64,000 nucleotides of DNA from Haliotis asinina (lineage: Eukaryota; Mollusca; Gastropoda; Lepetellida; Haliotidae): the NCBI RefSeq assembly GCF_037392515.1, contig NC_090295.1:16573001-16637000 (forward strand), given 5' to 3'. Positions 23,601 through 50,108 of the stretch are shown here, piece after piece. The notes beneath the pieces were generated by a model, which made no database searches, was not told the origin of the DNA, and saw only the letters and a program-made list of their open reading frames with translations. A program made the translations under genes and the position numbers. Every line of letters begins with the position of its first letter. The stretch's first letter is position 1.

Positions 23601-26600
23601 TCAAGAAAAGGTAAAAATAAATTCGGCTCGATAACGACAAGTGGAGCACACGTCACTGGCGACAAACGGCTAACTAATCACAGTGCCCGCAAACATATGA
23701 TTCACAAGTTGCTAGACAATAACGTAGCTTCAACGCAAATCGTGCAAGTGTCTGGACATAAGATTGTACAGAGTGTGAACAAGTATTCACGCCTTTCTGA
23801 TACACAACACTGGGAAGTGGGAAATCTGTTGTCTTCGACCGGAAATAAGCCTGCCATGTTTCCATGCTCGCGTCGCGCGTCTTCAATCGTTCCATCATCG
23901 GCAGTTTGTCGGAAATAAATCTAACATCCCAATGCATTTCGTACACAAACACAAGCAAAGCCTTGTCTAGTGATGTTGTTCACACTATCTTCGGAGGCCC
24001 AATAAACGGGGGAAAATTCCACAACATTTAACAACCGAGCCGTTACAACCCGTCGCCGTGTTGCTCGCTCTCCTCTCATTGACTCTTCTGACGACGGAAA
24101 ACTTTACCATTAACAATGTTTCCACTTAAACAGTTCTTACAGTTACTTAAGTTGATAAAGATTACAATTCAAAATGTGTTTGTATTTTTTATCTTCGTGC
24201 GAGAGTAGCTTGTCAATATGTCGCGCTCTTTTCTTAGTAGCATTACACAAGGAGTTTACGTCCATAGTGCCGTATCACTGTATTCTTACGCGACCTTGAC
24301 CTATACGTCAAGCGACAACAGCTGATTTCGTTTTACATGGAGTTGTTTAGATATAAAAAGTTAGACACAAATGGATAATAAAGAAATTAACACACTAGCT
24401 CTCGCGCGGGAAATATGCATTTTTTCTGACACTGGTTTCGTATAAACAATATGACACACTCGCTCGTGTATCAGTCTCTCTTTATTCACTAGCGTACATG
24501 GAAACAATTAAATAAACTACCTCACTGTTCAAATGCATTAACACCCTGTGACGATCAATGATATAATCGGTCGAATAGTCAGGCTTAGTTGATTCAGTCC
24601 ATTGTATTCCATTGCGTGTCATGCTCATGTCTCCAGGATAAACGTTACGATCAATCTCCACTATACCCTTGATGCATCTACGGCTCAGCCCGATAATTTT
24701 ATCACCTTCCTTTGCAGGCTCCACACTTTCACAGTAACCAATCAGTAACCTTTATATCTGTTAACTGACTTTTTATCCAATGAGGTGTCAACGCTGGGAA
24801 GTTGAGCGTACCAATCACATGCTCGCTTCTTCAATTATCTAAACGAACTTGGCAACACCTATCATGCAGAGTTACTCTGAAAACCTGTCCGTATGGACGA
24901 TTTCCAAAAATCTGAGTCGCACTGCGAACAAAATTTGGATATATTCTGGTCCAGACTCCGTTGTGCCGTGTTAAACAACAAAACAACCAACCAACTCTTC
25001 GTATATCATTTGTAATTGAGGGGCGGTGGGGTAGCCTTAAAGATAAAGCGTTAAAGACCCGGGTTCGATTCCCCACATTACTACAATCACTCCAGAGCTC
25101 CAGATAACTTTTCAAGCTATTGGGTATTTACTCCCATGTCTGTTTATGTGTGCGTAATTGCTTGTTCGAGGAGTTACTAGCATTTTGTATACTCCCACTA
25201 ATTTAAAGAATTTGAGTACTTTTACACAGTAAGAGTTTCTTATCCTTATTGGGTAAATAACTCTCCTACATATATAAATATAAATGCTTCTCAGTTGACT
25301 AAAAGTTGTTATTAATTGTTATATTGCAAAATAGTTTTCAGTCATTTTCAAATACTCAACATGGAAGTCATGTTACTATTACAGTAAACTCCGGACAGAG
25401 GCTACAGCTATAACAGTATATAGTTTATATAGGCATCGCCTACCATTTGCTAATGCTGTTATAGAGTTTGGGCGCCATGACGAATCATACGCAAACTTGT
25501 CAGTTAATTGAGTAAAGTACGCAGGTATTATAGACCTATCGGATTTTAAGTGATTCTTAGTGCGTTTTTCGTACTTCCAGATTTGTAATTAATTGAGTAA
25601 ATATGACTTTTATTTAGCAAAATGCGGCAAGTACGCGCCTTATCTGGAGCTCTGTTACAATGTATGAAGCCCTTTTTTTGGTGTCCCTCCGAAAAACACT
25701 AAAACCTCATACATTCATTCAATTTACACCGCGTTGATATTATTTCAGTTTTGTCGCGGGGTGTGAATAACGGGCAAGAAGTGACTCTAAAATATGGACA
25801 TTTTGAGAAAATATCAATGACACCACTGTTTTATTCGTGCACAAGAAAAAATAATCATTTTGGTTTTCCATTTGATTTAATGACGTGAGTGAGTGAGTTT
25901 AGTTTTACGTCGCACTTAGCAATATTCCAGCTATATGGCGACGGTCTGTAAATAATCGAGTCTGGACCAGACAATCCAGTGATCAACAACATGAGCATTG
26001 ATCTGCGCAATGGGGAACCGATGACATGTGTCAGCCAAGTCAGCTAGTCTGACCACCCGATCCCGTTAGTCGCCTCTTACGACAAGCATAGCCACCTTTT
26101 TATGGCCAGCATGGGTTGCTGAAGGCCTATTCTACCCCGGGACCTTCACGGGTCATTTAATGACAACATTAAGAACCGAGAGAGTTGCCAATGCACCCGT
26201 CTACATTCCCGAATGATAATCCTATTCATGTTTGAACTACATTTTACAGGGCACTTGATGAAAAAAAGCTGTGGGCAGAGTTTAAAGAAAAAGTAGAATT
26301 TGAATTGAACTTTCGATGGAATGAGAATGTCAGAGATGACAAGAATGAAGAGACCATGACTCTTGTTAAAAACATACTTCGCGAGTTCTCAACAAAATAT
26401 ACCAGCAATGCCAAGCTGGATGACATCACAAGCGAGGATGACATTCAAGCGTTGAAACAGATTCGAATGCAAGACGCGGGACAGTTTCCTGATATTGCCA
26501 TGAAACTGAAAAACCAAATTCTAAAAAAGGATATGGACGAATTGGACCAAGCCTTAACAGAAAAGGCCGACTCCTTCGTCCCAATGGGATCGCACTTCAG

Positions 26601-27051
26601 AATGCTGGCCGGCGGCAAGAGCAGCCCTGATCCTGTACTAAGTATGACAGCACGCAGACTAAATCTCAAACTGGATGAGATTCTGAAGACGGACCTAATT
26701 ACCAAGTACAATGAGACAACTCCAGGGAATTACATCTCGGAGGATGAGAAGAGATTCATGAGAAGACTTCCATCGTCTACCGGCACCAGCCCTATTGTAA
26801 ACCCCGTCCTCCGCCATCTTTACAACGTCAGCATCGACGGCGACGTGGAGGAAATCGAGACCCTGAGACAGAAGTTCCAGGCTGAGGGGAACCGTTTCAG
26901 ACTTCGAGACGGTGATCATAGGCTGTTCAAATACTACATCAGCGCTCCTGAAATCCCATTTAGACTCAAGACCAAGGCTAAAGGATTTCTGGAAATGCTG
27001 GAGAAGGCTGGAATCATCTCAAGACATAGGAAGAGACCGTATCGCTTTTAA
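20625..27051 (+). CDS. Gene B: EXD1/Egalitarian-like DEDDy 3'-5' exonuclease paralogue
   Basis: Five coding exons: 20625-20879, 21385-21465, 22174-22293, 23020-23141, 26250-27051. All introns are GT-AG with the same lengths of exons 1-4 and the same phases as A and C, giving 459 residues. Catalytic residues are complete: D33 and E35 in VAVDCEG, D93 in HACNNDSAAL, Y175 and D179 in DYACADV. Residues 193-459 are the same unrecognised C-terminal domain, ending SRHRKRPYRF, a basic tail. The ATG is the first codon after a TTTTTGTAG acceptor, so a 5' non-coding exon is expected, but I could not locate it for B. B is closer to C than to A: exon 1 differs from C at 15 of 255 bases and from A at 28 by hand count. 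Intron 1 has a 22-bp minisatellite, intron 2 two SINEs, and intron 4 a tyrosine-recombinase fragment and further SINEs. Confidence 0.87.
20895..21262. repeat. 22-bp minisatellite in intron 1 of gene B
   Basis: The unit is close to GATGTTTGACATGAACAATG plus TA, with about 16 diverged copies. The same unit fills intron 1 of gene C (43366-43866) and is absent from intron 1 of gene A. Antisense open frames such as HVKHLHCS are translations of the repeat and not genes. Confidence 0.9.
21474..21612 (+). repeat. tRNA-derived SINE, same site as in gene C
   Basis: Head GCAGAGTAGCTTAGTGGTTA (box A-like), then GACCCGGGTTCTATACC (box B-like) and a GATATTGCTGAAATATC tail. It begins about 9 bp after exon 2 of gene B, at the same place and in the same orientation as the copy after exon 2 of gene C (44299-44455). 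Confidence 0.85.
21625..21880 (+). repeat. Abalone-type SINE-like repeat in intron 2 of gene B
   Basis: Starts AAATCCTGAAGATCAGGG and runs through GGTGGTCAGACTCATTGACT to GCTGGAATATTGCTGAG and a TAAAACTAAACTTACTCACTC tail. The same copy exists in gene C, where a Tc1-type element has cut into it after CAATAACCCATGCTTG. Confidence 0.85.
23146..23280 (+). repeat. SINE remnant after exon 4 of gene B
   Basis: A diverged tRNA-derived SINE: GCGCAGTGGTGACTTAA-like head, then TTTGATTTCCCACATTAAGG, then TGATATTGCTGGAATATTG and a CTCAGTCACTCACTC tail. Gene C has no such insertion at the matching place. Confidence 0.65.
23640..23840 (+). mobile_element. Tyrosine-recombinase C-terminal fragment
   Basis: The plus-strand frame reads KRLTNHSARKHMIHKLLDNN, then TQIVQVSGHKIVQSVNKYS. 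This carries the HxxR (HSAR), GHK and final tyrosine motifs of a tyrosine recombinase, of a different subgroup from the one at 0.6-2.1 kb (GHK and NKYS here; GRW and DGYV there). Only this C-terminal piece is visible, in intron 4 of gene B. It is a broken mobile-element fossil, Crypton-type or DIRS-related. Confidence 0.65.
25020..25690 (+). repeat. tRNA-derived SINE interrupted by a small hAT-like MITE
   Basis: The SINE head (GGGGCGGTGGGGTAGCC, then GACCCGGGTTCGATTCCCC) runs to about 25088 and resumes at about 25656 with TTACAATGTATGAAGCCC and TGGTGTCCCTC. Between them, 25093-25654 is bounded by inverted repeats (CAGAGCTCCAGATAA left, TTATCTGGAGCTCTG right), the CAG-type end of hAT elements. 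TACAAT occurs on both sides, but a clean 8-bp duplication is not visible. The insert has no coding potential. Confidence 0.75.
25885..26154 (-). repeat. Full-length abalone-type SINE-like repeat with 10-bp TSD
   Basis: Flanked by an identical 10-bp target duplication, ATTTAATGAC (25875-25884 and 26155-26164), which fixes the mobile unit at 270 bp. On the minus strand it runs from GACCCGTGAAGGTCCCGG to a tail of AAACTCACTCACTCAC. The variable-site duplication and short tandem tail fit retroposition. It is absent from the matching intron of gene C, so it postdates the B/C split. Confidence 0.85.
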
Positions 27052-27668: not shown

Positions 27669-30242
27669 TGTTACAGGCCACATTGTGAGATGTAAACATG
27701 AGACGGACGGTCCATTTAATTAGTGTGATACCCGTGCATCACACGTGACACGGTGAGCCGATCAGAGGAGAGTACTGTAAGCGGGGCGTCCGTGCTACAT
27801 GTGTGCATCAGTCTCGTCTTGTCTTCTGTCTTGTCTTCTGTCTTGTCCAGTCGTCGTAAATAAATGTTTTGTGTGCCGGCCGGTGCCTTGATTGGTATCC
27901 CTTACATATGGTGGCAGCGGTAAAGGAAATTGAAGTTGCAACAGATGAAAACCCGACGTGTGAGTGAAAAATTGACTTTGTTCATTATTGTCGTCGCAAT
28001 TTTTGTTGGGTGTTCAACGCGGAGTGAGGCTAACATGTCCGTCCCTGAGGGAGAGAATGCTGCTGGCTCCCAGAATACTGACCAGTCGTGTACTTTCGGA
28101 GGAGGTTTTAAAATGCCAGTTTATGATCCTAAGCAAATGACATTTTCTGCATATATTGACAATATTTATGAACCAAAAGCCTGGGGGTTTGGTTGGAGTT
28201 AAAGACAAAAACTTCATGGACTTTCACGTGCTTTACCACCGGGTCATTGTACTAGCGTGTTTGGTCTCTGCCCCCCTGAATTAAAATCTGACTTTGAAAC
28301 TTTCAAGAAGTATTTGATAAAAGAAATTGACAGGACTGTTGAACGTAAACAAAAATGCAGCAAGTGATTTCCATACTTTGTCACAAAAGGTTTCTGAAAC
28401 CATTGATGAATTTGCGCATCGTTTGGCTTTGAAAGTAGACGAGGCTTATCCTTCATTTGCAAAGTCAAATAAGGAAGAACTATGTGCTCGGCGTTTCTAT
28501 GATGGTCTGTATTCCAAATCTGACAGTCTTGTAGATATGACTCGTCGTTTACAAGATACTGAGTCCCAGAAAAACTTGGATAATACTGCAGTATTGCGTA
28601 TCAAATGTTCATTTTGCAAAAAAACTTGGTCATAAGGAAAAAGATTGTCGTACTAGATTACGCTTAGTCTCTAGTCAGGTGGGTACACATTCTGGTGTTA
28701 TGTCACAGTCCTTTGGGTCACGTGGTGCATCGGGTTCCGGGAGACGTACGCATGATGAGAGGAAGTGTTACCAGTGTGGTATGCGAGGTCACATTGCACG
28801 ATTCTGTCGTAAGAGAGTGAATGTAGTGCGACCATCCAAACTTGTTGAAATTGGTAGGCTATATACGCAAGCAGTCATTGATTCGGGTGCGTGTGTGTCA
28901 TGCATTTGTGTTAGCTCGTTGGAGAAGGCTTTTCCTAGTGGTGTGTCCATACAGGAAACAAAGTCGAAGCTTAAGAGCTTATCTGGCGAGACATTAGATA
29001 CTATCGGTACAGTTGATACGTGTGTCCGTATTGACGGTAGTATCTACGAGTGTATTTTCCATGTGTTGGAAAACAGTACCGAGAATGTTCTACTTGGCTG
29101 GGATTTCCTATCAAAATTTGACAGGGTTACTCTGGTACCTAAACATAATGAAGTCAAACTGGGTAACTTAATCGAGTGTGGTAACAGGGTTGCCAGTGTA
29201 CATTTGACTGAATCTGTTGTTATACCACCAAGGTGTCAGAAAGTGTTGAGGGTGTCTGTTAGTCGGAACCTGGGTGATGGTGAACAGATGATGATTGAAC
29301 GGAATGAGAATTTTGAAACCAAGACAGGGCTGTTTGTAGCCAGGTCTGTTAGCTCGAGGAATCTGTGTGCGTTAGTAATGAATCCAGAACCAGTGAGTAA
29401 GAAGCTGTACAGATGTCAGACTCTTGGGGAGGCTCGAGAGTGTGAGGATTCTGTGTGTTCAAATACTCCCTCAACTTCGAAACAGAGCGAGTTAAGCGAT
29501 CCTAAGTTTAACATAGGGCCCGTGGATGATTTACATCGGGAAAAGTTAATAGCACTGCTCAGAGAATACAAAGATACATTGTTTACAGGTTTAGGACAGG
29601 TGAATGACCATACATTCAAGCTTACACTTAAACCTAATACAGATTTGAGTAAAGTTACACAGCGTCGCAAGCGGTTTGGTCCTCATGTAGATAAGATCGT
29701 TGATGGGCAAACTAAATCAATGGTGGATCAAGGTATAGTGGAACCTGGTACATCAACTATCATTTCACCAATTGTATTGGTTAAGAAGGCTGATAAGAGC
29801 GTAAGATTTTGTTTGGAGCTGAGAATTTTGAATGACCAGTTGCTTGACGAACGTTTTCCTTTAATGACTCCTAATGAGGCACTGATGAGATTTACACATT
29901 CAAAATATTTCAGTGTTCTTGATATGAACTCTGATTATAACCAGATTGTTTTGGATGAAACGTCAAGGCCCTTGACTGCATTTGAGACTTCGTCTGGTGT
30001 CTGGCAATTCTCACGTATGTGTTTTAGCATTCCAACGTACTATGCATCTTGTCCTGAGTGGGTTGTGGAGAGATCATATTTTGGTGTATCTGGACGATGT
30101 GTGTGTCCATTCGTCCACGGCCGATGAACATTTGTCAGTGTTACGTGAGGTGTTTGAGCGAATGAAGTCTGTTGGTTTGACATTAAAACCGTCTAAGTGT
30201 CATTTCTTTATGGATACAATAGAATATCTTGGTTTCCAGGGA
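27669..30242 (+). mobile_element. Ty3/Gypsy LTR retrotransposon fossil, 5' part
   Basis: A candidate 5' LTR spans 27669-27906 (TGTTACAG ... CCCTTACA, with an AATAAA near 27862), followed by a TGGTGGCAGCGG primer-site-like stretch. Then come a gag-like region (about 27.9-28.6 kb), a CCHC knuckle (CYQCGMRGHIARFC, about 28765), a protease motif (VIDSGACVS, about 28876), and reverse transcriptase blocks from about 29770 to 30240 including YLDDV. This order fits Ty3/Gypsy (Metaviridae). It is broken, with several breaks. I see no integrase or 3' LTR, so LTR divergence cannot date it. Confidence 0.8.
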
Positions 30243-30390: not shown

Positions 30391-30838
30391 ACAAAATATT
30401 CGTACTCCTGGAAATTCCGTGTCTAAAAATAATAATTTTCTTCCACACGCGACCGCTGATTTGCGGACAATAAGTAAGCAGCCAATCAGACACAAGCTTG
30501 TATACTACCATGGCTACTGTGCTCTACATCGCTAACATGTGCGTGTGAATTTTCGATTAAATAACAACAGATTTATGAATTGGCAACTTCTTCATTTGGT
30601 GTCAGTTACTTCCATTCTCAAATAGACGTCCGCTAATAACTACACAGTAATTTTAAAACGATCGCTGCTTTCATTCGCATGATATTCTGTTCATTTCCCT
30701 GTTTTCAAAAATAGGTCACACCAAGTGTGTCGGACATACTCCAGGAAAGTTTGTGTTTAAAAATAACAATTTCTTTGAAACGCGATAGCTGATTGGCGGA
30801 ATATAAATAAGCAGCCAATCGGAAGCAAGCTTGCAGGA
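30391..30838. repeat. Two diverged copies of a ~110-bp block upstream of the hAT ORF
   Basis: 30391-30505 and 30729-30838 share ACTCC(T/A)GGAAA, AAAAATAA-AATTTCTT, ACGCGA, GCTGATT-GCGGA and AAGCAGCCAATC-GA. Each carries a CCAAT word and a TATA-like AATAAGTAA/AATATAAATAA, so it may be a duplicated promoter or the 5' end of the hAT relative. The second copy ends just at the hAT reading frame. Confidence 0.6.
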
Positions 30839-32351
30839 AACCTACGTTAAGAACTGTCATGTAGCAGTCGACATGCCACCCAAAAAGCTACAGAAGCTGT
30901 CAAGTTCACAAAAAACATTGACTTCTTTGTTTGGGCAAAGTGAAACGAACAAAGATACAATTCAATCACCCGAATGTTCTGCCCAGGAAGTGGTGGATAC
31001 AGTTACCAAACACAAAAGCAGGAAATTTCAGTCAAGCTGGTTGACTACTCATCGTTCATGGCTTACGTACGACAGGGAAGGGGATTTCATGTTTTGCACA
31101 CTTTGTACTAAGAATGGTAAACGAAATGGCATGACACAAGATGCAAAATGTAGAAATTTCCAAAATACAACTTTGATCAGACACATAAACCACAATGACC
31201 ATAAACTGTCCATTCAAGCTCCCAAACTCAGAGATGATTTGCAAGTTGCAACTTCACACATACATGAGAAGCAGGACAGAGCAGCTGTGGCCCTAATGAA
31301 GTCAGTTCACTGGTTAGCATCAGAAAATATTCCACTGACAAAATTTAAGAGTTTTGTCGAATTTTTACATGAATTCGAAACCAAAGACATTCAAATGCTC
31401 AAGGAGGGTAAAATACATTATGATTCTCCAACTACTGCCACTGATCTCTTAACATCTATGTCTGATGTCATTGAGGATGACTTACAAATTAAAATGGAAA
31501 AGTCCCCATTTGTTACGGCCTTGGCAGACGAGAGTACTGACATCAGCAATCACAAACGCCTTGTCATTTACTGCCAAATAATACTTGAAATGGTGCCGAG
31601 CACTCATTTTGTCACCAACATTGAGTGCACAGATACGACAGGGAAAGGAATTGCAAGGGAAATTCTAGATCAATTGAAGAAACGTGGTATCCCCCCAGAG
31701 AAGATCAGGAGTCTGGGATCAGATGGTGCATCTGCGATGACAGGGAAGTACAATGGTAATTGAATATTTTCAATGACATTCCATGTATACATGTATGAAG
31801 TGAAATATCAGTATAATTAAGAAAACATTTATCACAGATGAGAGTAAATATAACTGAACAAATATTTTGTTTATACTAATTATAATACACATTATCTGAT
31901 CAGGAAATTTTATTAATGATTTTCAATAATTTCATAGTCACAGCATAAACAATTAAAAATATTTAATAGAATAGGTAGTAGCAAAGAGACGTAGACTTGC
32001 TAAATATTTCATGTTTCAAGTTTGAACTGAAAGACATTAATAGTATTCTTCTTTATTAATTTTAGGTGCAGCTGCCATCATAAAACATCTCAGGCTGCAT
32101 CCGGCATTCAGCATTTGAAGGATCATCAGCAAGTTTTGACAGATCTGTTTTATTACTTTCGTGCCAGCAGTAAGCGAGCATCCAGAATACATGAAATTCA
32201 GAAAATACTTGAAGACCCAAAACTGACATATAAAGAGATTCACTCTGTCAGATGGCTGTCTTATTTTGAGGCATTGAGCTGTGTGTATTTAACTCTGGAC
32301 AGTCTGCTTACTTACCTGTCAGAATTTGGCACAACCAGTGCCAACGAATAG
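30831..32351 (+). mobile_element. hAT-type transposase relative (ZNF862-like), truncated
   Basis: Exon 1 (to 31755; the best ATG is at 30873, MPPKKLQ) encodes about 300 residues. A zinc-finger-like segment comes first (FMFCTLCTKNGKRNG with later H-x4-H). Then come TALADESTDIS and LGSDGASAMTGKYNG, the regions with the first two acidic residues of hAT transposases. A GT-AG intron (31756-32065) leads to a second piece with KDHQQVLTDLFYYFRAS and EIHSVRWLSYFEALSC. The reading frame is interrupted after the junction by a deletion and a stop, and the C-terminal dimerisation region is missing. It resembles ZNF862/DUF4371-type proteins. I see no terminal repeats. A domesticated gene is unlikely given the damage. 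Confidence 0.75.
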
Positions 32352-33404: not shown

Positions 33405-35195
33405 TGCAGAGGGTTCGGGTGATCCTGGCACAGTCAGGCTGGTCAAGCTCATCATCAGCTCAGGGCCCTCGCCCCCTCTACACGCAGCCCACACAGCGAA
33501 TGGGACTTCTCCCAGGAAACACTGCCCAGTCGAACCCACCAAGAACTTTTCGGAGAATATGAAGGCTCCCCAACAATGCAGCCTTCTGCATTACCCAGAT
33601 TGTCAGAAGGGCTGTGCTCCCGGTGGAGAACCCGGGCACTCTCCTCATCTGCGCCAAGAGATCAGGAGGTACCAAACCAAGGGCACCGAGAACAATGGGG
33701 AGCCTGACGACAGTGTACTTGGAATGCAAGCGAGACATTTCAAAGGCGAGGTCCGCATATTTATCATGCTTTTCCTGAATCTTGCCAATCACATTGCTGT
33801 CAAAAGGGACAGAAAATTCAATGATATAAATAATTTCATTGGTTTTATCAAAAAGGACAAGATCAGGTTTGTTGGCTGGAATTCGTCTCAGGCTGTATAT
33901 TGGCCTATTCCAGAGAAGTTTGTAGCTGTCATTTTCCAGGACGCCCTGGACATGCTCAGGGTCGTACCATGGATGGACCTCGGAGTCAAAACCACAGGCA
34001 TGGCGGAGACGATAATAAAAGCAGCGAGCCATGCCATCATGTCTTTTAAGATATGCTGTTTGTGCCAAGGAAGGGCATCCACTAACAAGGTGTTGGACAG
34101 TCTCTGTAAATTGATTGCAAAGACGACATTTCATATTGATATTTTCTTTAAGAATCACATTCTGGCGATTGCGAGTGGGAAGTGACTGGTCCTGAGCAGC
34201 AAAAAGGAAGCCCTCAGTTTCACATTTGAGACCAGCCGACTTCATCCAGGCGAAGGAGTCGGTTGGATTGCTGTTCTGTTCCACACACTGCATATACACA
34301 CGATGCAATGGCTTCTCAGACAGCTTCTCCACAAAGGACCGACTCTGGGCAGAGACTTCACCTGGTTTACTCCCATCACTGTACCGTCCAGCAGTACATC
34401 GCCATCAACAAAATCAACTTCAAATTTCAAATTGTGTCCAACAACCTTGGCACGCTTAAAGTAGCTGTGGAATTCCTTGCTTTCATCATGAATCTTGACG
34501 TGCATCACCAGAGGATCATCTGACAAATAAATATGTGCAAAAGTACACAATAAAATTCTGTCATGAAGAGCTTCCACATTAATCAAACCCCGACCTCCCG
34601 AATTGATTGGCATATATAAACGATTAAGAGAGGAGCGAGGGTGGTGTGCTCTGTTATCAGACATGATCCTTCTGGTCAGGCGGTCAAGACTCTGGATGTC
34701 TTGTTTTGTCCAATCAACTACTCCAAAGGAGTAGGAGAGGACTGGCACAGCAAAAGTATTGGTGGCTTTGACTTTGTTTCGAGCATTTAGCTCTGAACTC
34801 CAGATTTTCTTTAAACGAGATTTATACTCGGCCCGAAGTTTATCTTGAATCAGGGCATTCTGGAGCTTGTCTCGAACTTGCATTCCAAGATAGGTGTAGG
34901 CCTTATCTTCCACAAGATGCTCAATAACTCCTCCCCCTTGTAACTTGACCGATCCATCATTAGTTACCTTGCCACGTTTCAGATGAAGAGTATTACATTT
35001 GTCGAGTCCAAATGTCATGCCAATATCATTAGAGAAGGACTCGACAAGGAGAACCTGTTCTTTCAAATTGGTCTCTCCTTTGGCAAGGAGCTCGATGTCA
35101 TCCATATAGAGGAGATGAGTGAGAGGTGTTGGGGATCTGTGCTGAGGAGGTCCGGGATGGTACCCTTCCTCCCCGTTGAGCAGGAAACTCAAAGG
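33405..35195 (-). mobile_element. R2-group-like LINE, 5'-truncated
   Basis: Minus-strand coding from 35192 to 33478. It starts at SFLLNGEEGYHPG and reaches HLLYMDDIELLAKGE, the reverse transcriptase active site, near 35105. Next come thumb-like sequence, a CCHC knuckle (CRLCNQFTETVQHLVSGC, near 34128) and a restriction-enzyme-like endonuclease segment (PDLVLFDKTNEIIYIIEFSV, near 33860). This order (RT, CCHC, REL endonuclease) is typical of the R2/R4/HERO side of the LINEs. The frame changes once near 34240-34330, so it is dead. Upstream RT blocks are missing by 5' truncation. The plus-strand open frame at 33559-34185 is its shadow. Confidence 0.8.
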
Positions 35196-35786
35196 ATTTA
35201 TTATTATTATTATTATTTAAATATTATCTTTTTGTTTGTTAAGTATATACATATATATATATATATATTCTTTAAATATTCTTATAATTTTATTATTTGA
35301 TTTATTTTTCTTATATTATCTTTATTACATACGTGTGCGAACATATCGGGGTTCATATTTTTCCTACGATGCCATAGGACAAAATATCACTTTGTCATGG
35401 TGACGTGACATCATGAGCAATGCCATGACGTCCAGTTTCTTCTGTGACGTTGCGTTCGACGTGCGACGGCGGCGGGTAGCCAGCCTGTGTTTGAAAGAAA
35501 TTTGGGTTCATTTTCCTCTATTTGACGACTTCGGTAATAAACAGAATATCATGTTTATGTCCATGTCATACTATGTTTACCTAAAGGTTGGTATTTCCCG
35601 AGCGAAAATATTATACTATTCATATACAATATTCTCTATTTATGACAATACGTCTTGTACAGACGTTCAAAATAGTCTGGTACAATTTGTTTACTCGGAT
35701 AAATACATTTTCTTTGTTTGGATGACGTATTGTCTTCTATATTTAAAGGTACACTGTCTTTTGCTTTGGTTAATACTGTGTTGTTT
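35196..35786. other. AT-rich spacer with microsatellites
   Basis: An ATT run (about 35197-35216) abuts the 5' end of the LINE, and an AT run lies at 35248-35267. A 125-codon open frame (35413-35790) has no recognised motif, poor composition and no paralogue here; I do not call it a gene. Confidence 0.5.
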
Positions 35787-40249: not shown

Positions 40250-42890
40250 TTATCACACAGGGACAACATCTAAGTGTCACATACTGTGTTTATCACACAG
40301 GGACAACGTCTAAGTATCACATACTGTGTTTATCACACAGGGACAACGTCTAAGTGTCACATACTGTGTTAATAACACAAGGACAACATCTAAGTGTCAC
40401 ATACTGTGTTAATAACACAGGGACAACATCTAAGTGTCACATACTGTGTTAATAACACAGGGACATCATCTAAGTGTCACATACTGTGTTTATCACACAG
40501 GGACAACGTCTAAGTAGTGTCACATACTGTGTTAATAACACAGGGACATCATCTAAGTGTCACATACTGAGTGTATCACACAGGGACAACCTCTAAGTGT
40601 CACATACTGTGTTAATAACACAGGGACAACGTCTAAGTGTCACATACTGTGTTAATAACACAGGGACAACGTCTAAGTGTCACATACTGTGTTAATAACA
40701 CAGGGACATCATCTAAGTATCACATACTGTGTTTATCACACAGGGACAACGTCTAAGTGTCACATACTGTTTATCACACAGGGACAACGTCTAAGTGTCA
40801 CATACTGTGTTTATCACACAGGGACAACATCTAAGTGTCACATACTGTGTTTATCACACAGGGACATTCTCCAAGTGTCACATACTGTGTTTATCACACA
40901 GGAACAACATCTAAGTGTCACATACTGTGTTTATCACACATGGACAATCTCTAAGTGTCACATACTGTGTTAATAACACAAGGACAATATCTAAGTGTCA
41001 CATACTGTGTTTATCACACAGGGACAACATCTAAGTGTCACATACTGTGTGTATCACACAGGGACATCATCTAAGTGTCACATACTGTGTTTATCACACA
41101 TGGACAATCTCTAGGTGTCACATACTGTGTTAATAACACAGGGACAATGTCTAAGTGTCACATACTGTGTTAATAACACAAGGACAATGTCTAAGTGTCA
41201 CATACTGTGTTTATCACACAGGGACATCATCTAAGTGTCACATACTGTGTGTATCACACAGGGACAACGTCTAAGTGTCACATACTGTGTTAATAACACA
41301 GGGACAACGTCTAAGTGTCACATACTGTGTTAATAACACAGGGACATCATCTAAGTGTCACATACTGTGTTTATCACACAGGGACAACGTCTAAGTGTCA
41401 CATACTGTGTTTATCACACAGGGACAACATCTAAGTGTCACATACTGTGTTAATAACACAGGGACAACATCTAAGTGTCACATACTGTGTTAATAACACA
41501 GGGACATCCTATTAGTGTCACATACTGTGTTTATCACACAGGGACAACGTCTAAGTATCACATACTGTGTTTATCACACAGGGACAACGTCTAAGTGTCA
41601 CATACTGTGTTAATAACACAAGGACAACATCTAAGTGTCACATACTGTGTTAATAACACAGGGACAACATCTAAGTGTCACATACTGTGTTAATAACACA
41701 GGGACATCATCTAAGTGTCACATACTGTGTTTATCACACAGGGACAACGTCTAAGTGTCACATACTGTGTTAATAACACAGGGACATCATCTAAGTGTCA
41801 CATACTGAGTGTATCACACAGGGACAACCTCTAAGTGTCACATACTGTGTTAATAACACAGGGACAACGTCTAAGTGTCACATACTGTGTTAATAACACA
41901 GGGACAACGTCTAAGTGTCACATACTGTGTTAATAACACAGGGACATCATCTAAGTGTCACATACTGTGTTTATCACACAGGGACAACGTCTAAGTGTCA
42001 CATACTGTGTTTATCACACAGGGACAACGTCTAAGTGTCACATACTGTGTTTATCACACAGGGACAACGTCTAAGTGTCACATACTGTGTTTATCACACA
42101 GGGACATTCTCCAAGTGTCACATACTGTGTTTATCACACAGGAACAACATCTAAGTGTCACATACTGTGTTTATCACACATGGACAATCTCTAAGTGTCA
42201 CATACTGTGTTAATAACACAAGGACAATATCTAAGTGTCACATACTGTGTTTATCACACAGGGACAACATCTAAGTGTCACATACTGTGTGTATCACACA
42301 GGGACATCATCTAAGTGTCACATACTGTGTTTATCACACATGGACAATCTCTAGGTGTCACATACTGTGTTAATAACACAGGGACAATGTCTAAGTGTCA
42401 CATACTGTGTTAATAACACAAGGACAATGTCTAAGTGTCACATACTGTGTTTATCACACAGGGACATCATCTAAGTGTCACATACTGTGTGTATCACACA
42501 GGGACAACGTCTAAGTGTCACATACTGTGTTAATAACACAGGGACAACGTCTAAGTGTCACATACTGTGTTAATAACACAGGGACATCATCTAAGTGTCA
42601 CATACTGTGTTTATCACACAGGGACAACGTCTAAGTGTCACATACTGTGTTTATCACACAGGGACAACATCTAAGTGTCACATACTGTGTTAATAACACA
42701 GGGACAACATCTAAGTGTCACATACTGTGTTAATAACACAGGGACATCCTCTTAGTGTCACATACTGTGTTTATCACACAGGGACAACGTCTAAGTGTCA
42801 CATACTGTGTTTATCACACAGGGACAACATCTAAGTGTCACATACTGTGTTTATCACACAGGGACATCATCTAAGTGTCACATACTGTGT
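40250..42890. repeat. 40-bp satellite, about 66 copies, with 31-unit higher-order repeat
   Basis: The unit is CATACTGTGTTTATCACACA followed by GGGACAACATCTAAGTGTCA, 40 bp. Two main variants differ in the centre (TTTATCACACAG or TTAATAACACAG). The second makes a perfect 17-nt palindrome, CTGTGTTA-A-TAACACAG. Marker variants recur exactly 1240 bp (31 units) apart: GGGACATTCTCC at 40861 and 42101, and GGGACATCCT at 41501 and 42741. So the array is largely two copies of a 31-mer. Its open frames are repeat translations. It lies in the predicted 5' intron of gene C. Confidence 0.95.
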
Positions 42891-43093: not shown

Positions 43094-46000
43094 ATGGCAG
43101 AAGGTGGAGAACGCCACAAGGTTGTGGATAACGTCGATGACTGCGTCAAGGCTGTCGATGACCTCCTCAAGGAGCCTGTCGTTGCTGTGAACTGCGAGGG
43201 AATCCATCTCGGAAAGAAGGGCCCTCTCACTCTTCTCCAGGTGGCCAAACGAGACGGTTTTGTCTACTTGTTCAATGTGTTCGTTGAGCCAAAGGTCTTC
43301 AATGAAGGCCGACTGAAGACGTTTCTGGAAAACAAAGATATCACCAAGGTATGATGTCATGAACAATATTGATGCTTGACATGCACGTTGAAGATGTTTC
43401 ACATAAACATTGTGGATGTTTGATATGAATGATGTAGATGCTTGATATATACAATATGGATGTTTGACATGAACAGTATACTGCAGGTGTTTGACATGAA
43501 CAATGTAGGTGTTTGACATGAACAATGTAGGTGTTTGACATGAACAATGTAGGTGTTTGACATGAACAATGTTGTGGAGATGACTGACACGAACAATATA
43601 GTGTGTGACGTGAACATTGTGGATTGCTGACCTGAACAATTTAGATATTTAACTTTAATAATGTATTGTTCCGAGTGAACAATGTAGATATTTGACATGG
43701 ACACTGTTGATATTTATTATGAACAATGTAATGGAGGTGTTTGACATGAACAATGTAGGTGTTTGACATGAACACTGTTGCTGTTTATTATGAACAATAT
43801 AATGGAGATGATTGACATGAACAATACAAGTGTTTGACATGAGCAATGTGGATGTTTGCCATGAACCGACCAAGGCGAACAGCCCTTGACTGCTCCCCGT
43901 CGGAACCGTCTACCAATGAACACTTGCCATAAAAGGTGACTATGTCGTAAGAGGCGACTAACGGGATCGGGTGGTCAGGCTGGCTGACGTGGTTGACACA
44001 TGTCATTGGTTCCCAATTGCGCAGTTCGATGCTCATGTTGTTGATCACTGGATTGTCTGGTCCAGACTGCGTACCACCGCCATATAGCTGGAATATTGCT
44101 GAGTGCGGAGTAAAACTAATCTCACTCACTCACTTGCCAATAAACCTATGACATTTATGTGACCTTTACTTTTGACAGTTCCAACACCAGTTCTAATGCT
44201 TTGTCTTCTTCAGGTGTTTCACGCCTGCAGCAACGACAGTGCCGCCCTCAAGTGCCAGTACGACGTCATGGTCGTCAACGTGTTTGATGTACAGGTTAGC
44301 ATATCAATGGAGGCGACAGAGTAGCTTAGTGGTTAAAGTGTTTGCTCGTCACGCCATACACACGGGTTCTATACCACACTTGGGTACAGTATGTGAAGCC
44401 TATTTCTGGTGTCCCCTGCCGCGATATTGCTGAAATATCACTGAAAGATGAGTAGAAAACCCCGAAGATCAGGGTTAGAATAGATCTTCAATAACCCATG
44501 CTTGAAACTTCACATTCTTTCTTCAGGGCACTATAAAATAACAAGGTGTGGTAAGATGGTTCAATTGCTATTATTGCATTGCTGAGATCTGTGTGATGTA
44601 CTTGATACACTGACAGTGCCACAAGCAGTTCCATCAGGCTACACCGCCGTTCCAAAACATGGGTATACAGAATGTCAAGTCACAAGAATAAAAATTCGAA
44701 AAATTGCAGCCCGCAACCGATTTCGAATGGTCTGTGAGGACAGTGTAGCCGGCAGAAATCCGTCACGTAGGTGGCGTAGGACGATTTGACGTTCTTCTGC
44801 TCGTGACGTCACACGTGGGCCATGGTCGATCAGAAGTGGTGCCAGTTTGTTATAGACGACCTCGAAAGTCATATACAGTACAGCGGCTGCATTTCATTGC
44901 TCTTGCGACGTCAATAACTGATCTTCCCGTTTGCAACATGCCAACGGCACGTTCACGTTGCACATTTGAGAATCGTGACATTTACTGTACCGTTAGAACT
45001 GTGGTTTAAAAGTTTTGTTTTTTTTCCAATTCTTGAGACCAGAAGAAAACTTCGATGCGAAGATCACATGATCGACTGCACGTGCAAAACCTGATTTGGC
45101 ACTAACGTCATTTGCACAACGAATGGGTGGGTTTGAGTGGGTTTTGCTAACGTTTTTCTAGAGTCGAAGGATAGGGATCCCATTTCGGATACATAGATGT
45201 ATCATCAGAGAAAAAAATTCATTATTTTTAAAAATTACATTTTGTGAAGTTTCTTTCTTGACTATATATTAATGGATGCGGTAGTGTAGCTAAGTGGCTA
45301 ACACGTTTGCTCGTCACACCAAAGACCCCGGTTCGATTCCCCACATGGGTACAATATGTGAAGGCCATTTCTGGTGCCCGTTGTAGCTATTCCAGCGATA
45401 TGCTGGAATATTGCTGAAAGTAACTGCTCCCTCATTCAGTATATTAATGACACAGCTGGAAGTACCGCTTGCTCAAGATAGGGAACGTCCGACGCATAAA
45501 CCTTTTCTGTATGTGACTTTGAGGGTCAGTGCGCCACTGTTTGTGAGCAGAGGGCCTTCATACTGGTACCCTGCTGCGCTGTTCTCTATCAGTTATAATT
45601 TTTAAACATTCATATAAGATTGCCAGACATTTCAGTGTTTATTTAATAGATTTAGGTGCCTCGCGTTTTCATGTTCTTTCAGGCGGCCCAGTATGTAATT
45701 GAAAAGTCAGAAGGGAGACAACTACCGTCTTACCGGACAATGCTGGATCTGTGCCGCTTATATACAGACGTCACATCGCTTGAGGGGAACGGAGAAGTTC
45801 AAGTAGGACATATCAATCATTTAAGGAACATACGTTTGTCGTTTACTGGCGTCATGCAGTTTGATGTATGTTTGACGTTTTAAGTAGAGACCTACTTGTG
45901 GACCCATAGTCTTTCCTTGCTTGTGTCGAGTAAACAGCATGGTGTCAATGATGATTTTTATCAATACATGCAGAAAGAGCACTAGGATGTGGGAGGTAGT

Positions 46001-49000
46001 CAGCACAATATGAATACCTCACTCAAACATGGGAAAAAATTCGCTCAAGGTTGTATCAATACGTAAAGACTCTTCGTGCCCACCCAAGCACGGCGTTTGT
46101 TCCTATTTCGGATGAAAATAGACGCTCTCTGAGACTGGAACACTACCAAGTTGCAAAGTTTTTTAAGCACAAGAAGCTATTCTCAAACGATACAATGAGA
46201 GAGGTTCTTGTACAGTATAGGTTGTCAGTGACGTGAAGGTATTTGATTGGTGTGCTAACGTTTTCTTAGGCTTCATGTGTTGACGATTAAAGTTTGGTAG
46301 GACTTACTGTTGACTTAAATATCAATGTAAAATCAAGTTGGTATTTGCGGTTATCTCTCCACAAGGCAGTTAAGTCAATTCAAACTGGCTCGGTGACCCA
46401 GGTTATATTTTGATGATGCTGAATAAGTTGTCGGATGTCTCGAAGTTAGGATAACTCGATATTTTTGTTGGTTCCATGAATATCGAGACAACGGTGCTCG
46501 ACTGTATATTCTGTGCGCACGCACACTGAAAACAAAAAGAGCCACCGAATCATAAGCGTTTGTTATGCCGTCATAATTGTTCAATTTAGTTTTGAGTTTT
46601 GACAAAGTCATGTTTATCTTGGAGGCTATTTTGATACTAGATCATTCGGAGATTTTATATCTTATCCTGAAACTAAAAGGTAATAGCACGGTAACCTTGC
46701 ATTTACAACTAAAAATGGTTTGATGTACAGGCGGAAAGGTACAAGGCAGACAATGCTTACTGGGCTAAAAAGGAATTATCGCCGGAAATGGTAGACTACG
46801 CATGTGCAGGCGTGCGGATTCTGTTGCCGGAAGTGTATGACAAGCAGAAGAGGTAGGTTTAGAGGCTGAAAGGGGTTTTGGTTTGAAGACAATTTGGAAA
46901 ATATTGCATTTTTGTTAACTGTTGTAGGAGGAAAGATCTGCAGGTTATACGTACGCGTGATCTAATTGGTTTGTCGTATTTCCCCTTTTCAGTAACCTCC
47001 AAGGAGAGTCGTCCCCGCCTTGATGTCTGTCATGTGTGAAAATACGACATTCAATCATAACCAGCGTTATGATTGGCGTGTTTTAATAAAAATATTAAAG
47101 TTGTGTTTGTTTAAGATGTCATGGAACATATATATCGTCATACTGAAAGATCAAAGATCACAGCAAACAGAACTGTGTTGCTCCGTGTAGATTTTATTAA
47201 GGATAGCACCATGGACTGTGAGAGATTCAAATACACTGCGAACGTGTTTATGGCAAGCCGTTTTCACATTTATTCAGGAATTTCGGATATCTTCAATTGT
47301 TTTAAAGATATCTGCATTATATTTAAAGATATCAATCATGATTTAAAGATATCTGCATTATATTTAAAGATGTCAATCATGATTTAAAGATATCTGTAAA
47401 TATTTGAAGATATCTCTAATTAATTTCACATATCCAAAATAGAATTACTGGTATCTCAAAATGTTATAGAGATGTCAAGATAATCTTTCGAGATATCTGT
47501 AAATGTTTTAAAGATATCTGCAAACCAATTACGATCATAGTGTACATAATTGTACTAGAAATTAATTCAAGATATCTTGAATTCAATTCAACATATCTGG
47601 AAATCAATTCTAGATATCTTGAAATGATCGGTACATATCCACAAATGCATTACAGATATCTTTAATTCAATTAGAGATATCTTTAATTCAATATCTTTAA
47701 TTCAATTATTGATATTGTCAATTCTTACTATTACTGATATCTAAAATTGTTTTACAGATATCTTGAATTGATTTGAAGATGTCTTGAATTGAATTAGAGA
47801 TATCTTGAAATGAATTAAAGATATCTTGAATTGTAACGGTTTCAAGATATCTTCAAATACTGACCCGTGAAGGTCCCGGGGTAGAATAGGCCTTCAGCAA
47901 CCCATGCTTGTCATAAAAGGTGACTCAGCTTGTCGTAAGAGGCGACTAACGGGATCGGGTGGTCAGGCTCCCTGACTTGGTTGACACATGTCATCGGTTC
48001 CCAATTGCGCAGATCGATGCTCATGTTGTTGGTCACTGGATTGTCTGGTCCAGGCTCGATTATTTACAGACCGCCGCCATATAGCTGTAATATTGCTGAG
48101 TGCGGCGTAAAACTAAACTCACTCTCTCTCTCTCTTCAAATACTTCCGGCTACATATCCGTAAATACTTCCGGTTGGAAATAGTTGGTGACCATGCTTGT
48201 ACAGCTCTTACATGCCGTGGGCCGAGATGCGGTCAAGACATGATCCTGTATCGCGGCCAAAAACACCGCCTGTATGAATTCTACCCAGATTCTTGTGGTC
48301 AATATTCCCTCGTAGTTTTTTAGTCAGTTCCTGTATCAACGCTAGCGAGCTAACACATGTGGCAATGCGCCACATTTTTATTTTTATAGTTTCTGATAGT
48401 GTTCTACAGTGGGGCCGTCCAATGTTCATTCGAGCTTTGATTTTCGCCGTCATGGGTTCAATTGAGTGTAGTGCTATCAATGTTTGGGGCTTGACATGGA
48501 GATTGTGTGTGCGCTTCCAACATATTTAGGCATTATACTTGTTAATAGCTGCGAGTTTTAAAACTATAATATTGTATCGGTGTGTAACTAATCAACTTTA
48601 ATCTTTAACATTGGGCTTATATTTCACATCTCTGGGGATAGTTTAGTCTGACTTTGTCTTCGGTTTATTTTTATCATAATGTTTTCATTGTCTGAAAGTC
48701 CAAGACTCAATGTTAAAGGATTGAGGATCATTCATACTTTTTTTCAGCGAATTCATTAAAAGTTCCAACAAAGTTGAGAAATATGTTATTTAAGTCATTA
48801 TTTAGTATCTGCTTCAGGATTTGATGAAAAATTTGATTTTATTTGCATATTAGATAAAACGATTCCCATGTGTGAGTATTAAACCCTGTTTAGAAACATA
48901 AGTGGAAATATCAGGTGAACGGCTGGTAACAACGGCCTTAGAATAGGTCTTCTCCTGCATTTACTTGTATCAAAAAGTTTCAGTTCTTGAAAACAAATGA

Positions 49001-50108
49001 GTAAAAACAAAAAACGGCAATATAAGGTACGAGTACTTTGATGATACTACGAAACACTGGACTCAAACAAGAGTAGAGTTATCGTTCTTGTTTCAAGTAG
49101 TTCTCATGTTTATGCGGCTATATCAAATCCTTTCAGTCCCTGTTCGGCTTGACCCAGAATAAAGAGTTGGTCACGAATGATATCTGCTCAAATCGCTAAG
49201 TCGTCGACACTGACAAAATATCCGTGGCATGTGTGTATTATACGTGTTCAAGGAAATAATTTTTGCTTTTCTTGATTCAATGACGAAATTGAGTCGACTT
49301 TGATAATGCTATTCATGAGTGAAGTATATTTTGCAGAACACTTGATGACAAAGAACTGTGGGTACAGTTTAATGAAAGAGTAAAATTTGAACTGAACTTT
49401 CGATGGAATGATAGTGTCAGAGATGACAAGAATGAAGAGACCATGACTCTTGTGAAAAACATACTTCGCCAGTTCTCAACAAAATATACCAGCAATGCCA
49501 AGCTGGATGACATCACAAGCGAGGATGACATTGAAGCGTTGAAACTGATTCGAATGCAAGAGGTTGGACAATTTTCTGATATTGTCATGAAACTGAAAAA
49601 CCAACTTCTAAAAAGGGATATGGACAAATTGGAACAAGCCTTAACTGAAAATGCCGACTCTTTCGTCCCGATAGGGTTGCATCACAGAATACTGGCCGGC
49701 GGCAAGAGAAGCCCTGATCTTGAAGTAAGCATGGCGGCGCAGAAACTATATCTCAAGCTTAATGCTATTCAGATGGCAGGCCTACTTACCAAGTACAATG
49801 AGACAACTCCTAGTTATTACATCTCGGAGGATGACAAGAAATTCCTGAGAAAACTTCCACCCTGTACCGGCACCAACCCGAATGTAGACCCCGTCCTCCG
49901 CCATCTTTACAACGTCAGCATCGACAGCTACGTGGAGGAAATCGAGACCCTGAGACAGAAGTTCCAGGCTGAGGGGAGCCGTTTCAGACTTGGAGACGCT
50001 GATCATAGGCTGTTCAAATACTACATCAGCGCTCCTGAAATCCCATTAAGACTCAAGACTAAGGCTAAAGAATTTGTGGACATACTGGAGAAAGCTGGAA
50101 TCATTTGA
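43094..50108 (+). CDS. Gene C: EXD1-like paralogue with a lost DEDDy active site
   Basis: Five coding exons: 43094-43348, 44214-44294, 45683-45802, 46731-46852, 49337-50108. All introns are GT-AG and the frame stays open, giving 449 residues. Exons 1-4 have the same lengths and phases as in A and B. Two catalytic acids are changed: Exo I is VAVNCEG (N33 for D33, codon AAC for GAC) and Exo III is DYACAGV (G179 for D179, codon GGC for GAT). D93 (HACSNDSAAL) and Y175 remain. Without two metal-binding aspartates, nuclease activity is very unlikely. The stop TGA falls where B has TCA, removing the last 10 residues (SRHRKRPYRF in B). The rest of the C-terminal domain is intact and close to B. It could be a pseudo-enzyme with an RNA-binding or dominant-negative role, as mammalian EXD1 is reported to act without nuclease activity, or a gene starting to decay. 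Confidence 0.82.
43366..43866. repeat. 22-bp minisatellite in intron 1 of gene C
   Basis: About 22 copies of the unit seen in gene B intron 1 (GTGTTTGACATGAACAATGT and variants with GATATTTATTATGAACAATG). Four neighbouring copies near 43490-43570 are almost identical, which suggests recent expansion. Confidence 0.9.
43930..44130 (+). repeat. Abalone-type SINE-like repeat in intron 1 of gene C
   Basis: Starts inside the unit (ATAAAAGGTGACTATGTCG, then TAAGAGGCGACTAACGGG), runs to TTGATCACTGGATTGTCTGG and ends CTGAGTGCGGAGTAAAAC, CTCACTCACTCAC. The 5' end is missing. It has no counterpart in gene B. Confidence 0.85.
44299..44455 (+). repeat. tRNA-derived SINE, same site as in gene B
   Basis: Begins 5 bp after exon 2 and shares with the gene B copy both its position (GGTTAGCATAT-AATGGA junction) and substitutions, for example GGTTCTATACC in place of the consensus GGTTCGATTCC. 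Confidence 0.85.
44504..45263 (-). mobile_element. Tc1-type internally deleted element, inverted second copy
   Basis: Reverse-complement relative of 19391-20198 with the same internal junction (GTGACTTGACATTCTGTATA in both). The left end lacks about 13 outer bases of the inverted repeat; the right end reads GTGAAGTTTCTTTCTTGAC. It interrupts the SINE-like repeat that continues intact at the matching place in gene B, so it inserted after the B/C duplication. Confidence 0.85.
45268..45440 (+). repeat. tRNA-derived SINE in intron 2 of gene C
   Basis: Head GATGCGGTAGTGTAGCTAAG, then GACCCCGGTTCGATTCCCCA (good box B) and tail GCTGGAATATTGCTGAAAG. It abuts the Tc1-type copy and is absent from gene B. 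Confidence 0.8.
47285..47850. repeat. AGATATCT-rich array in intron 4 of gene C
   Basis: About 25 occurrences of AGATATCT or near variants (AGATGTCT, ACATATCT) at roughly 18-28 bp spacing, separated by AATT-rich words such as TTGAATTGAATT. A strictly periodic unit is hard to define. The core is a palindrome. No coding potential is seen. Confidence 0.8.
47866..48128 (+). repeat. Abalone-type SINE-like repeat in intron 4 of gene C
   Basis: Nearly full length, from GACCCGTGAAGGTCCCGG to GCGGCGTAAAACTAAACTC and a CTCTCTCTC tail. It contains a short internal duplication (CATGCTTGTCATAAAAGGTG, then GCTTGTCGTAAGAGGCG). It abuts the AGATATCT array and is absent from gene B intron 4. Confidence 0.85.

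Follow-up and report, generated by a model that had tools for sequence, protein, structure and literature searches.

A tandem DEDDy exonuclease paralogue of Haliotis asinina predicted to have lost catalysis

The window analyzed here, a 64,000-nucleotide stretch of Haliotis asinina DNA (contig NC_090295.1), contains three tandem paralogues, genes A, B and C, all on the same strand, and the third is predicted to encode a nuclease fold that no longer cuts. Proteins of this family would consist of an N-terminal DEDDy 3′-5′ exonuclease fold followed by a C-terminal region. We regard gene C as a paralogue of gene B that has lost catalysis, most likely a young duplicate in early decay, an explanation to which we give about an even chance. 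Whether relaxed or repurposed, such a young dead paralogue would belong with the DEDD pseudonucleases already known. The genes and associated features are these:

7651-14920, forward strand: gene A, exons 7651-7905, 8319-8399, 8586-8705, 12862-12983 and 14116-14920; 460 amino acids, full DEDDy set
20625-27051, forward strand: gene B, exons 20625-20879, 21385-21465, 22174-22293, 23020-23141 and 26250-27051; 459 amino acids, full DEDDy set
40250-42890, forward strand: 40-bp tandem array of 66 copies, ending about 200 bp 5′ of the gene C ATG
43094-43348, forward strand: gene C exon 1, codons 1-85, ExoI motif; N33 at 43190-43192, E35 at 43196-43198
43094-43333, forward strand: probable gene-conversion tract, approximately nucleotides 1-240 of the coding sequence, where A is unusually close to B and C; it includes the N33 codon
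44214-44294, forward strand: gene C exon 2, ExoII motif; D93 at 44235-44237
45683-45802, forward strand: gene C exon 3
46731-46852, forward strand: gene C exon 4, ExoIII motif; Y175 at 46797-46799, G179 at 46809-46811
49337-50108, forward strand: gene C exon 5 (proposed), C-terminal region, weak acceptor; TGA at 50106-50108

The first four exons measure 255, 81, 120 and 122 nt in all three genes and are bordered by GT-AG splice sites; over these 578 nt the genes do not differ in length. The initial annotation had claimed that gene C has lost two catalytic acids, with all five catalytic residues present in A and B, and this is borne out. Genes A and B both have D33, E35, D93, Y175 and D179, with GAC at codon 33 and GAT at codon 179, whereas gene C has AAC (N33) and GGC (G179) and retains the other three. 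The four acidic ligands D-E-D-D plus Y that define the DEDDy type are thus complete in A and B and incomplete in C. The same five residues recur in Egalitarian and in three bacterial RNase-D-like proteins. Of eight aligned sequences six have D33, the exceptions being C with N and Bombyx EXD1 with S; seven extend to residue 179, and all but C, with its G, have D there. Both aspartates, of the ExoI and ExoIII motifs, belong to the standard DEDDy metal ligands, and in DEDD enzymes replacement of one of them is known to abolish activity. Because D33 and D179 are such ligands we infer strongly that catalysis by gene C is lost; without them a two-metal site would not form, and the product would be expected to cut neither RNA nor DNA. 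"Predicted pseudo-exonuclease", the wording of the initial annotation, describes it fairly in biochemical terms.

A count of changes points the same way, with at least two of the 12 amino acid changes on the C branch (resolved codons) falling on the five named catalytic residues of 192 (p=0.03; p=0.056 with 16 changes on the branch), although this test is weak because the residues were picked after the fact, and the catalytic roles of residues 33 and 179 carry more weight as an argument. In the exonuclease domain A, B and Egalitarian have the same residue at 50 columns; C deviates from it at five (33, 117, 131, 132 and 179), and the presence of 117, 131 and 132 among these indicates that its losses extend beyond the active site. 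For comparison, B deviates at two of the 47 columns on which A, C and Egalitarian are identical; the figure for A is seven of 52.

All three products match PF01612 above the family cut-off (C 5.4e-17, A 2.3e-19, B 5.4e-22), C scoring 62.6 bits (cut-off 23.6) over residues 11-188, so that C matches the domain of the RNase D, EXD2 and Rrp6 DEDDy exonucleases but lacks their ExoI and ExoIII aspartates. Their nearest solved relative is the exonuclease-homology domain of Drosophila Egalitarian (PDB 9uju/9rvy; C 8e-28, A 2.2e-27, B 1e-28), a protein that also has the exonuclease fold followed by a further region; it differs from C in keeping all five catalytic residues, and from all three genes in having, as described, three N-terminal domains that are absent from the gene models here. 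Judged by its sequence, C has the combination that marks a DEDD pseudonuclease, a kept fold with lost catalytic residues. A parallel with mammalian EXD1 had been proposed at the outset, and it holds as an analogy, in that EXD1 (Bombyx 5fiq/5fis and the mammalian protein) belongs to the same domain family and has lost catalytic residues. As a statement of kinship it fares less well: in the searches with A, B and C, confined to solved chains, Egalitarian is far the better match in all three (for C, 8e-28 against 7e-11 for Bombyx EXD1), and EXD1 is not the closest family member of C among the chains compared. The ligands lost are also partly different ones, Bombyx EXD1 having S at the D33 column, D at E35 and L at D93 in a fragment that stops short of D179. 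EXD1, a partner of TDRD12 and PIWI in making piRNAs, has been described as an RNA-binding adapter (PMC6385260) and called a pseudonuclease or catalytically inactive (PMC8097288, PMC5408684) in papers citing the primary work, but one review table credits it with 3′-5′ exonuclease activity (PMC4982230); C is likened to it from sequence only. The Ssd1-type pseudonucleases derived from Dis3L2 are of the RNase II family, unlike the DEDD-type C, and offer a precedent in that nuclease residues are described as lost repeatedly in these RNA-binding proteins, in some cases after duplication (PMC8097288).

The alternative to decay that survives best, falling somewhat short of an even chance, is that selection retains gene C, much as with EXD1 or Egalitarian, as a non-cutting RNA binder, a decoy, or a protein that dimerizes with A or B; the changed residues would then reflect a changed role. 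Precedents are available: Egalitarian reportedly needs its putative catalytic residues neither to bind RNA in vitro nor to function in vivo (PMC13186709), and two papers (PMC8097288, PMC5408684) class EXD1, Maelstrom and Exuperantia as pseudonucleases or as DEDD derivatives without activity. One argument for retention comes from the reading frame. B and C differ at 143 of 1347 coding positions with no indel among them, whereas their aligned non-coding sequence, sampled as eight alignable stretches excluding the repeat-filled intron 1, has nine indel events in 792 nt with 126 differences. From these flanks 10-15 coding indels are expected over the B and C branches together, and therefore about 5-8 for C alone; that none is seen suggests that the frame has been under selection for much of its history. 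The first 449 codons of C are also free of stops, an outcome reached in 5-7% of neutral simulation runs (at 80 and 70 substitutions).

The right end of the gene argues otherwise. All three copies carry a homologous long last exon, some 256-267 codons in length, behind an acceptor of matching phase, and in C the TGA lies ten codons before the stop of B, such that the basic C-terminal tail of A and B is absent; the sequence 3′ of this TGA still aligns with the tail of B up to a common TAA. The C acceptor is weak, with pyrimidines at seven of 15 positions by hand count, and was located by eye at the homologous site, the pyrimidine filter having excluded it. Among the acceptors listed there are two more in phase near the last exon in A and two more in B, and the homologous ones were used. 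The initial annotation gave no coordinates for a fifth exon. Its claim that all five exons, the splice sites and the frame are intact can be kept for exons 1-4 and their GT-AG borders, and must be softened to a frame nearly kept for the whole: C has five exons, GT-AG borders and no indels relative to B, yet carries an early stop and a weak last acceptor. Two other models of this region were set aside. A small fifth exon of C (46993 onwards) was dropped, having no counterpart in A or B where the long homologous exon is present in all three copies, and the long open reading frame is not taken for an independent gene of one exon, since the matches between copies begin 5-47 nt before the acceptor and no common start codon is seen.

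Rates of substitution divide in a similar way. In a branch model of the full gene (448 codons, 13 of 461 alignment columns having been removed for gaps) the dN/dS ratio w is 0.25 for A, 0.29 for B and 0.94 for C; w=1 is rejected for B (p=0.005) and not for C (p=0.92), the 95% range for wC running from 0.5 to the grid limit of 3 or beyond. Likelihoods of the branch models give 2dlnL=11.0 for one ratio against a model setting A and B against C, but a direct test of wB against wC gives no significant difference (p=0.11), and with codons 1-80 removed this becomes p=0.38 while wB=1 is also not rejected (p=0.12). The exonuclease domain taken alone gives wC 0.43 (range 0.2-1.3), the first rate tests, on a four-exon model, gave 0.40-0.43 for the C branch, below the full-gene value, and as few amino acid changes in the domain of C arise in only 0.9-2.6% of neutral-substitution simulations. 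With B and C pooled, w is 0.50 for the full gene (below 1, p=0.00036) and 0.27 for the exonuclease domain (p=1.1e-5). The last exon pooled for B and C has w of 0.81, not different from 1 (p=0.42), and fitted separately has wB 0.47 and wC 1.67 (difference p=0.50, with two of the two-ratio fits reaching the bound w=20); since this exon may be fast in B too, its rate does not mark C as special. All of these tests are limited by the use of three sequences, by a nearly saturated outgroup (A-B dS of 1.9 in the last exon) and by gene conversion.

The further claim of the initial annotation, that the C protein is otherwise maintained, thus stands in part, on the missing indels, the stop-free codons and the exonuclease-domain ratio, and is weakened by the whole-gene ratio and the loss of the basic tail. 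The outcome it had named as evidence against itself, a dN/dS near 1, appears on the C branch for the full gene, the domain value being lower. The whole-gene ratio, the missing tail, the weak last acceptor and the deviations at conserved columns beyond the active site weigh against retention, and a literature search for EXD1-like genes in molluscs found no work on the family among the matches listed. Under the early-decay explanation the frame of C would have been held by selection for most of the time since the split from B, and the constraint on its residues would have slackened later, with the active site and the basic tail lost and the whole-gene ratio close to 1. Even so, C may still yield a folded, RNA-binding protein that does not cut.

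Exon 1 appears to have a separate history. Third-position differences between A and C number four of 79 in coding nucleotides 1-237 and 53 of 107 in exons 2-4 (Fisher p=6.8e-12), and those between B and C number eight of 79 and 22 of 107, respectively (p=0.07), suggesting that exon 1 was probably homogenized by gene conversion. A more specific scenario, which we consider possible and on balance unlikely, is that C is a very young DEDD pseudonuclease whose frame is under selection, whose active site was lost after the exon 1 conversion, and which now serves as a non-cutting RNA binder or as a dominant partner of A and B.

An assembly error, the collapse of a repeat or a single rare allele is an improbable source of N33, G179 or the early stop. 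Paralogues in tandem, with a 66-copy array just upstream, do make for difficult assembly, but the lesions fall one each in three exons spread over 7 kb, GGC differs from GAT by two bases, and the overall divergence of C from B is that expected of a real paralogue. Least probable is that C still cuts by means of an altered metal site, as the retention of E35, D93 and Y175 might allow, since two of its four acidic ligands are replaced by poor or non-ligand residues and single aspartate replacements suffice to inactivate DEDD enzymes.

Such RNA regulators as EXD1, Maelstrom and Exuperantia have been described as nuclease folds without catalysis, and their catalytic losses are old. If the loss in C is recent, then, with two intact-site copies alongside and B and C still alignable as DNA, related species would allow one to date in what sequence catalysis was lost, constraint changed and the tail disappeared. 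A newborn pseudonuclease would provide a natural test of how EXD1-like adaptors originate; if C is merely decaying, it illustrates an ordinary fate of duplicates.

The C-terminal regions of A, B and C match no Pfam family at E≤0.01, and under laxer Pfam and NCBIfam limits that of B again gives none, and that of A only weak ones that stay below cut-off. Searches against PDB sequences at E≤10, with B as query and with an A/B/C profile, give no match, the chain of Egalitarian included (ten residues of the rejected 46993 exon were part of the C query in the first Pfam search and in the PDB search that matched Egalitarian). An AlphaFold model of the region is poor (mean pLDDT 61.6, pTM 0.38) and a fold search with it gives no match at E≤0.001; at low confidence, the model suggests a mostly helical region. 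Pattern searches gave 122 pattern matches and no relatives in viral contigs, and 86 pattern matches with three distant bacterial relatives in genome contigs. Finally, a TAG resembling a 3′ splice site lies directly 5′ of gene C exon 1, and a non-coding exon may therefore exist further upstream; the 40-bp array may separate gene C from any such exon or promoter.

A single gene occurs three times in the window, as A, B and C, all on the same strand; the first four exons (255, 81, 120 and 122 nt) are equal in length and phase across the copies, have GT-AG borders, and specify a 3'-5' exonuclease domain of the DEDDy type (Pfam PF01612; E-values of 5.4e-17 for C, 2.3e-19 for A and 5.4e-22 for B). 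Because exon 1 starts at an acceptor-like TAG/ATG junction in all three, each model may lack a 5' non-coding exon. A long ORF lies 3' of exon 4 in each copy (∼46% identity between A and B, 75% between B and C), and similarity among the copies begins 5-47 nt upstream of its acceptor, which is in an exon-4-compatible phase in every case, giving the following last exons.

14116-14920, forward strand, last exon of A
26250-27051, forward strand, last exon of B
49337-50108, forward strand, last exon of C

The full proteins are 460 (A), 459 (B) and 449 (C) residues long, and with this exon C reaches past the interval given by the initial annotation (43190-46820). The acceptor in C is pyrimidine-poor and was missed by the acceptor filter; a small last exon for C at 46993 was dropped because neither A nor B has an equivalent. 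No relative of the C-terminal region scores above cut-off in Pfam, NCBIfam or PDB, and the region's structure model is mostly helical, with low confidence.

The initial annotation described C as a predicted pseudo-exonuclease that has lost two catalytic acids, and the residues are as it stated: codon 33 is AAC in C (43190-43192) and GAC in A and B, and codon 179 is GGC in C (46809-46811) and GAT in A and B, while E35, D93 and Y175 are retained in all three. When A, B and C are aligned with Egalitarian, Bombyx EXD1 and three bacterial RNase-D-like proteins (eight sequences in all), the catalytic residues fall in common columns, which we take to be the ExoI, ExoII and ExoIII motifs. D33 is present in six of the eight (C has N and Bombyx EXD1 has S), D93 in all except Bombyx EXD1 (L), and D179 in six of the seven rows that extend to this column. 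From established DEDD chemistry we strongly infer that catalysis is lost in C, and with two catalytic aspartates gone the pseudo-exonuclease label is justified biochemically. As a count, two changes among five catalytic residues exceed chance only mildly (p=0.03 to 0.056, computed after the fact).

The further claim, of five exons with an intact frame, is only nearly right. The borders are GT-AG and there are no indels relative to B, but a TGA lies ten codons ahead of the B stop, and C lacks the basic tail of the other two copies (PKRRPRNQLR in A, RHRKRPYRF in B); the sequence 3' of the TGA can still be aligned to B as far as a common TAA. Across eight alignable non-coding segments, with the repeat-filled intron 1 excluded, B and C differ by 126 substitutions and 9 indel events in 792 aligned positions, whereas the 1347 coding positions have 143 substitutions and no indels, against an expectation of 10 to 15. 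The frame stayed free of stops in 5-7% of neutral simulations, at 80 and 70 substitutions. Selection probably guarded the reading frame for much of its history, in contrast to the residues, and because coding indels are missing and few neutral runs remain stop-free, C has probably not been neutral throughout its whole life.

The substitutions themselves give a different picture. Between B and C, pairwise dN/dS rises from 0.23 for the exonuclease domain to 0.71 for the last exon, and a three-branch codon model (448 codons) gives 0.25, 0.29 and 0.94 on the A, B and C branches; a ratio of 1 is rejected for B (p=0.005) and not for C (p=0.92), with no significant difference between the B and C ratios (p=0.11). 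Without codons 1-80 that difference has p=0.38, and 1 is no longer rejected for B (p=0.12). With B and C pooled the whole-gene ratio is 0.50, below 1 (p=0.00036), and for the exonuclease domain alone the C ratio is 0.43 (grid range 0.2-1.3). The pooled last-exon ratio of 0.81 is not distinct from 1 (p=0.42) and is distinct from a one-ratio model with A (p=9e-5). Rapid change here may be a trait common to both young copies. The maintained protein of the initial annotation is not established. A dN/dS close to 1 over the whole gene, together with the weak acceptor and the loss of the basic tail, points to relaxation, and there is about an even chance that C is a dead duplicate in early decay. That it is instead a retained pseudonuclease, as the missing indels favour, is a credible if somewhat doubtful possibility, against which the same three features count.

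Exon 1 probably has a separate history. Differences of A from B and C number 0-4 per 30 nt in CDS nt 1-240, 6-15 in nt 241 to 480, and 2-8 in the remaining windows. At third positions of nt 1-237, A and C differ at 4 of 79, versus 53 of 107 in exons 2-4 (Fisher p=6.8e-12); the corresponding counts are 10/79 and 48/107 for A and B (p=2.4e-6), and 8/79 and 22/107 for B and C (p=0.07). The simplest reading is homogenisation by gene conversion; constraint on silent sites could also account for the pattern, but the abrupt break within exon 1 argues against it. Since the N33 codon lies inside the putative conversion tract, this change probably post-dates the exchange.

The top solved relative of A, B and C is Drosophila Egalitarian (8e-28 for C), with Bombyx EXD1 far behind (7e-11). 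According to a report on Egalitarian (PMC13186709), its putative catalytic residues lie ∼15 Å from bound RNA, and neither RNA binding in vitro nor function in vivo requires them. In this closest solved relative, catalysis does not appear to be what selection requires, so A and B too are putative nucleases. EXD1 itself is termed a pseudonuclease or inactive DEDD derivative (PMC8097288, PMC5408684) and an RNA-binding adapter (PMC6385260), and is entered with exonuclease activity in a table (PMC4982230).

Repeats lie next to C and within B and C.

40250-42890, tandem array, 66 copies of a 40-bp unit, whose end lies ∼200 bp upstream of the gene C ATG exon
20903-21265 and 43358-43866, 22-bp minisatellite (TGTTTGACATGAACAATGTAGA and relatives), much of intron 1 in B and in C

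Part of C intron 2 (44504-45158) is ∼81% identical to inverted sequence upstream of B (19500-20185), with no match to it reported in B intron 2, and may be a mobile element that inserted into C. Retroelement-like ORFs occur at 28541-30127 and 33478-35216; an aspartyl protease/RT-like ORF on the plus strand has Pfam matches below cut-off, and a minus-strand ORF matches zf-RVT above and RVT_1 below it. For the ORF at 30807-31763, the match to a C17orf113-type zinc finger exceeds the cut-off and that to DUF4371 falls short of it; this ORF is perhaps a relative of hAT-type transposases.
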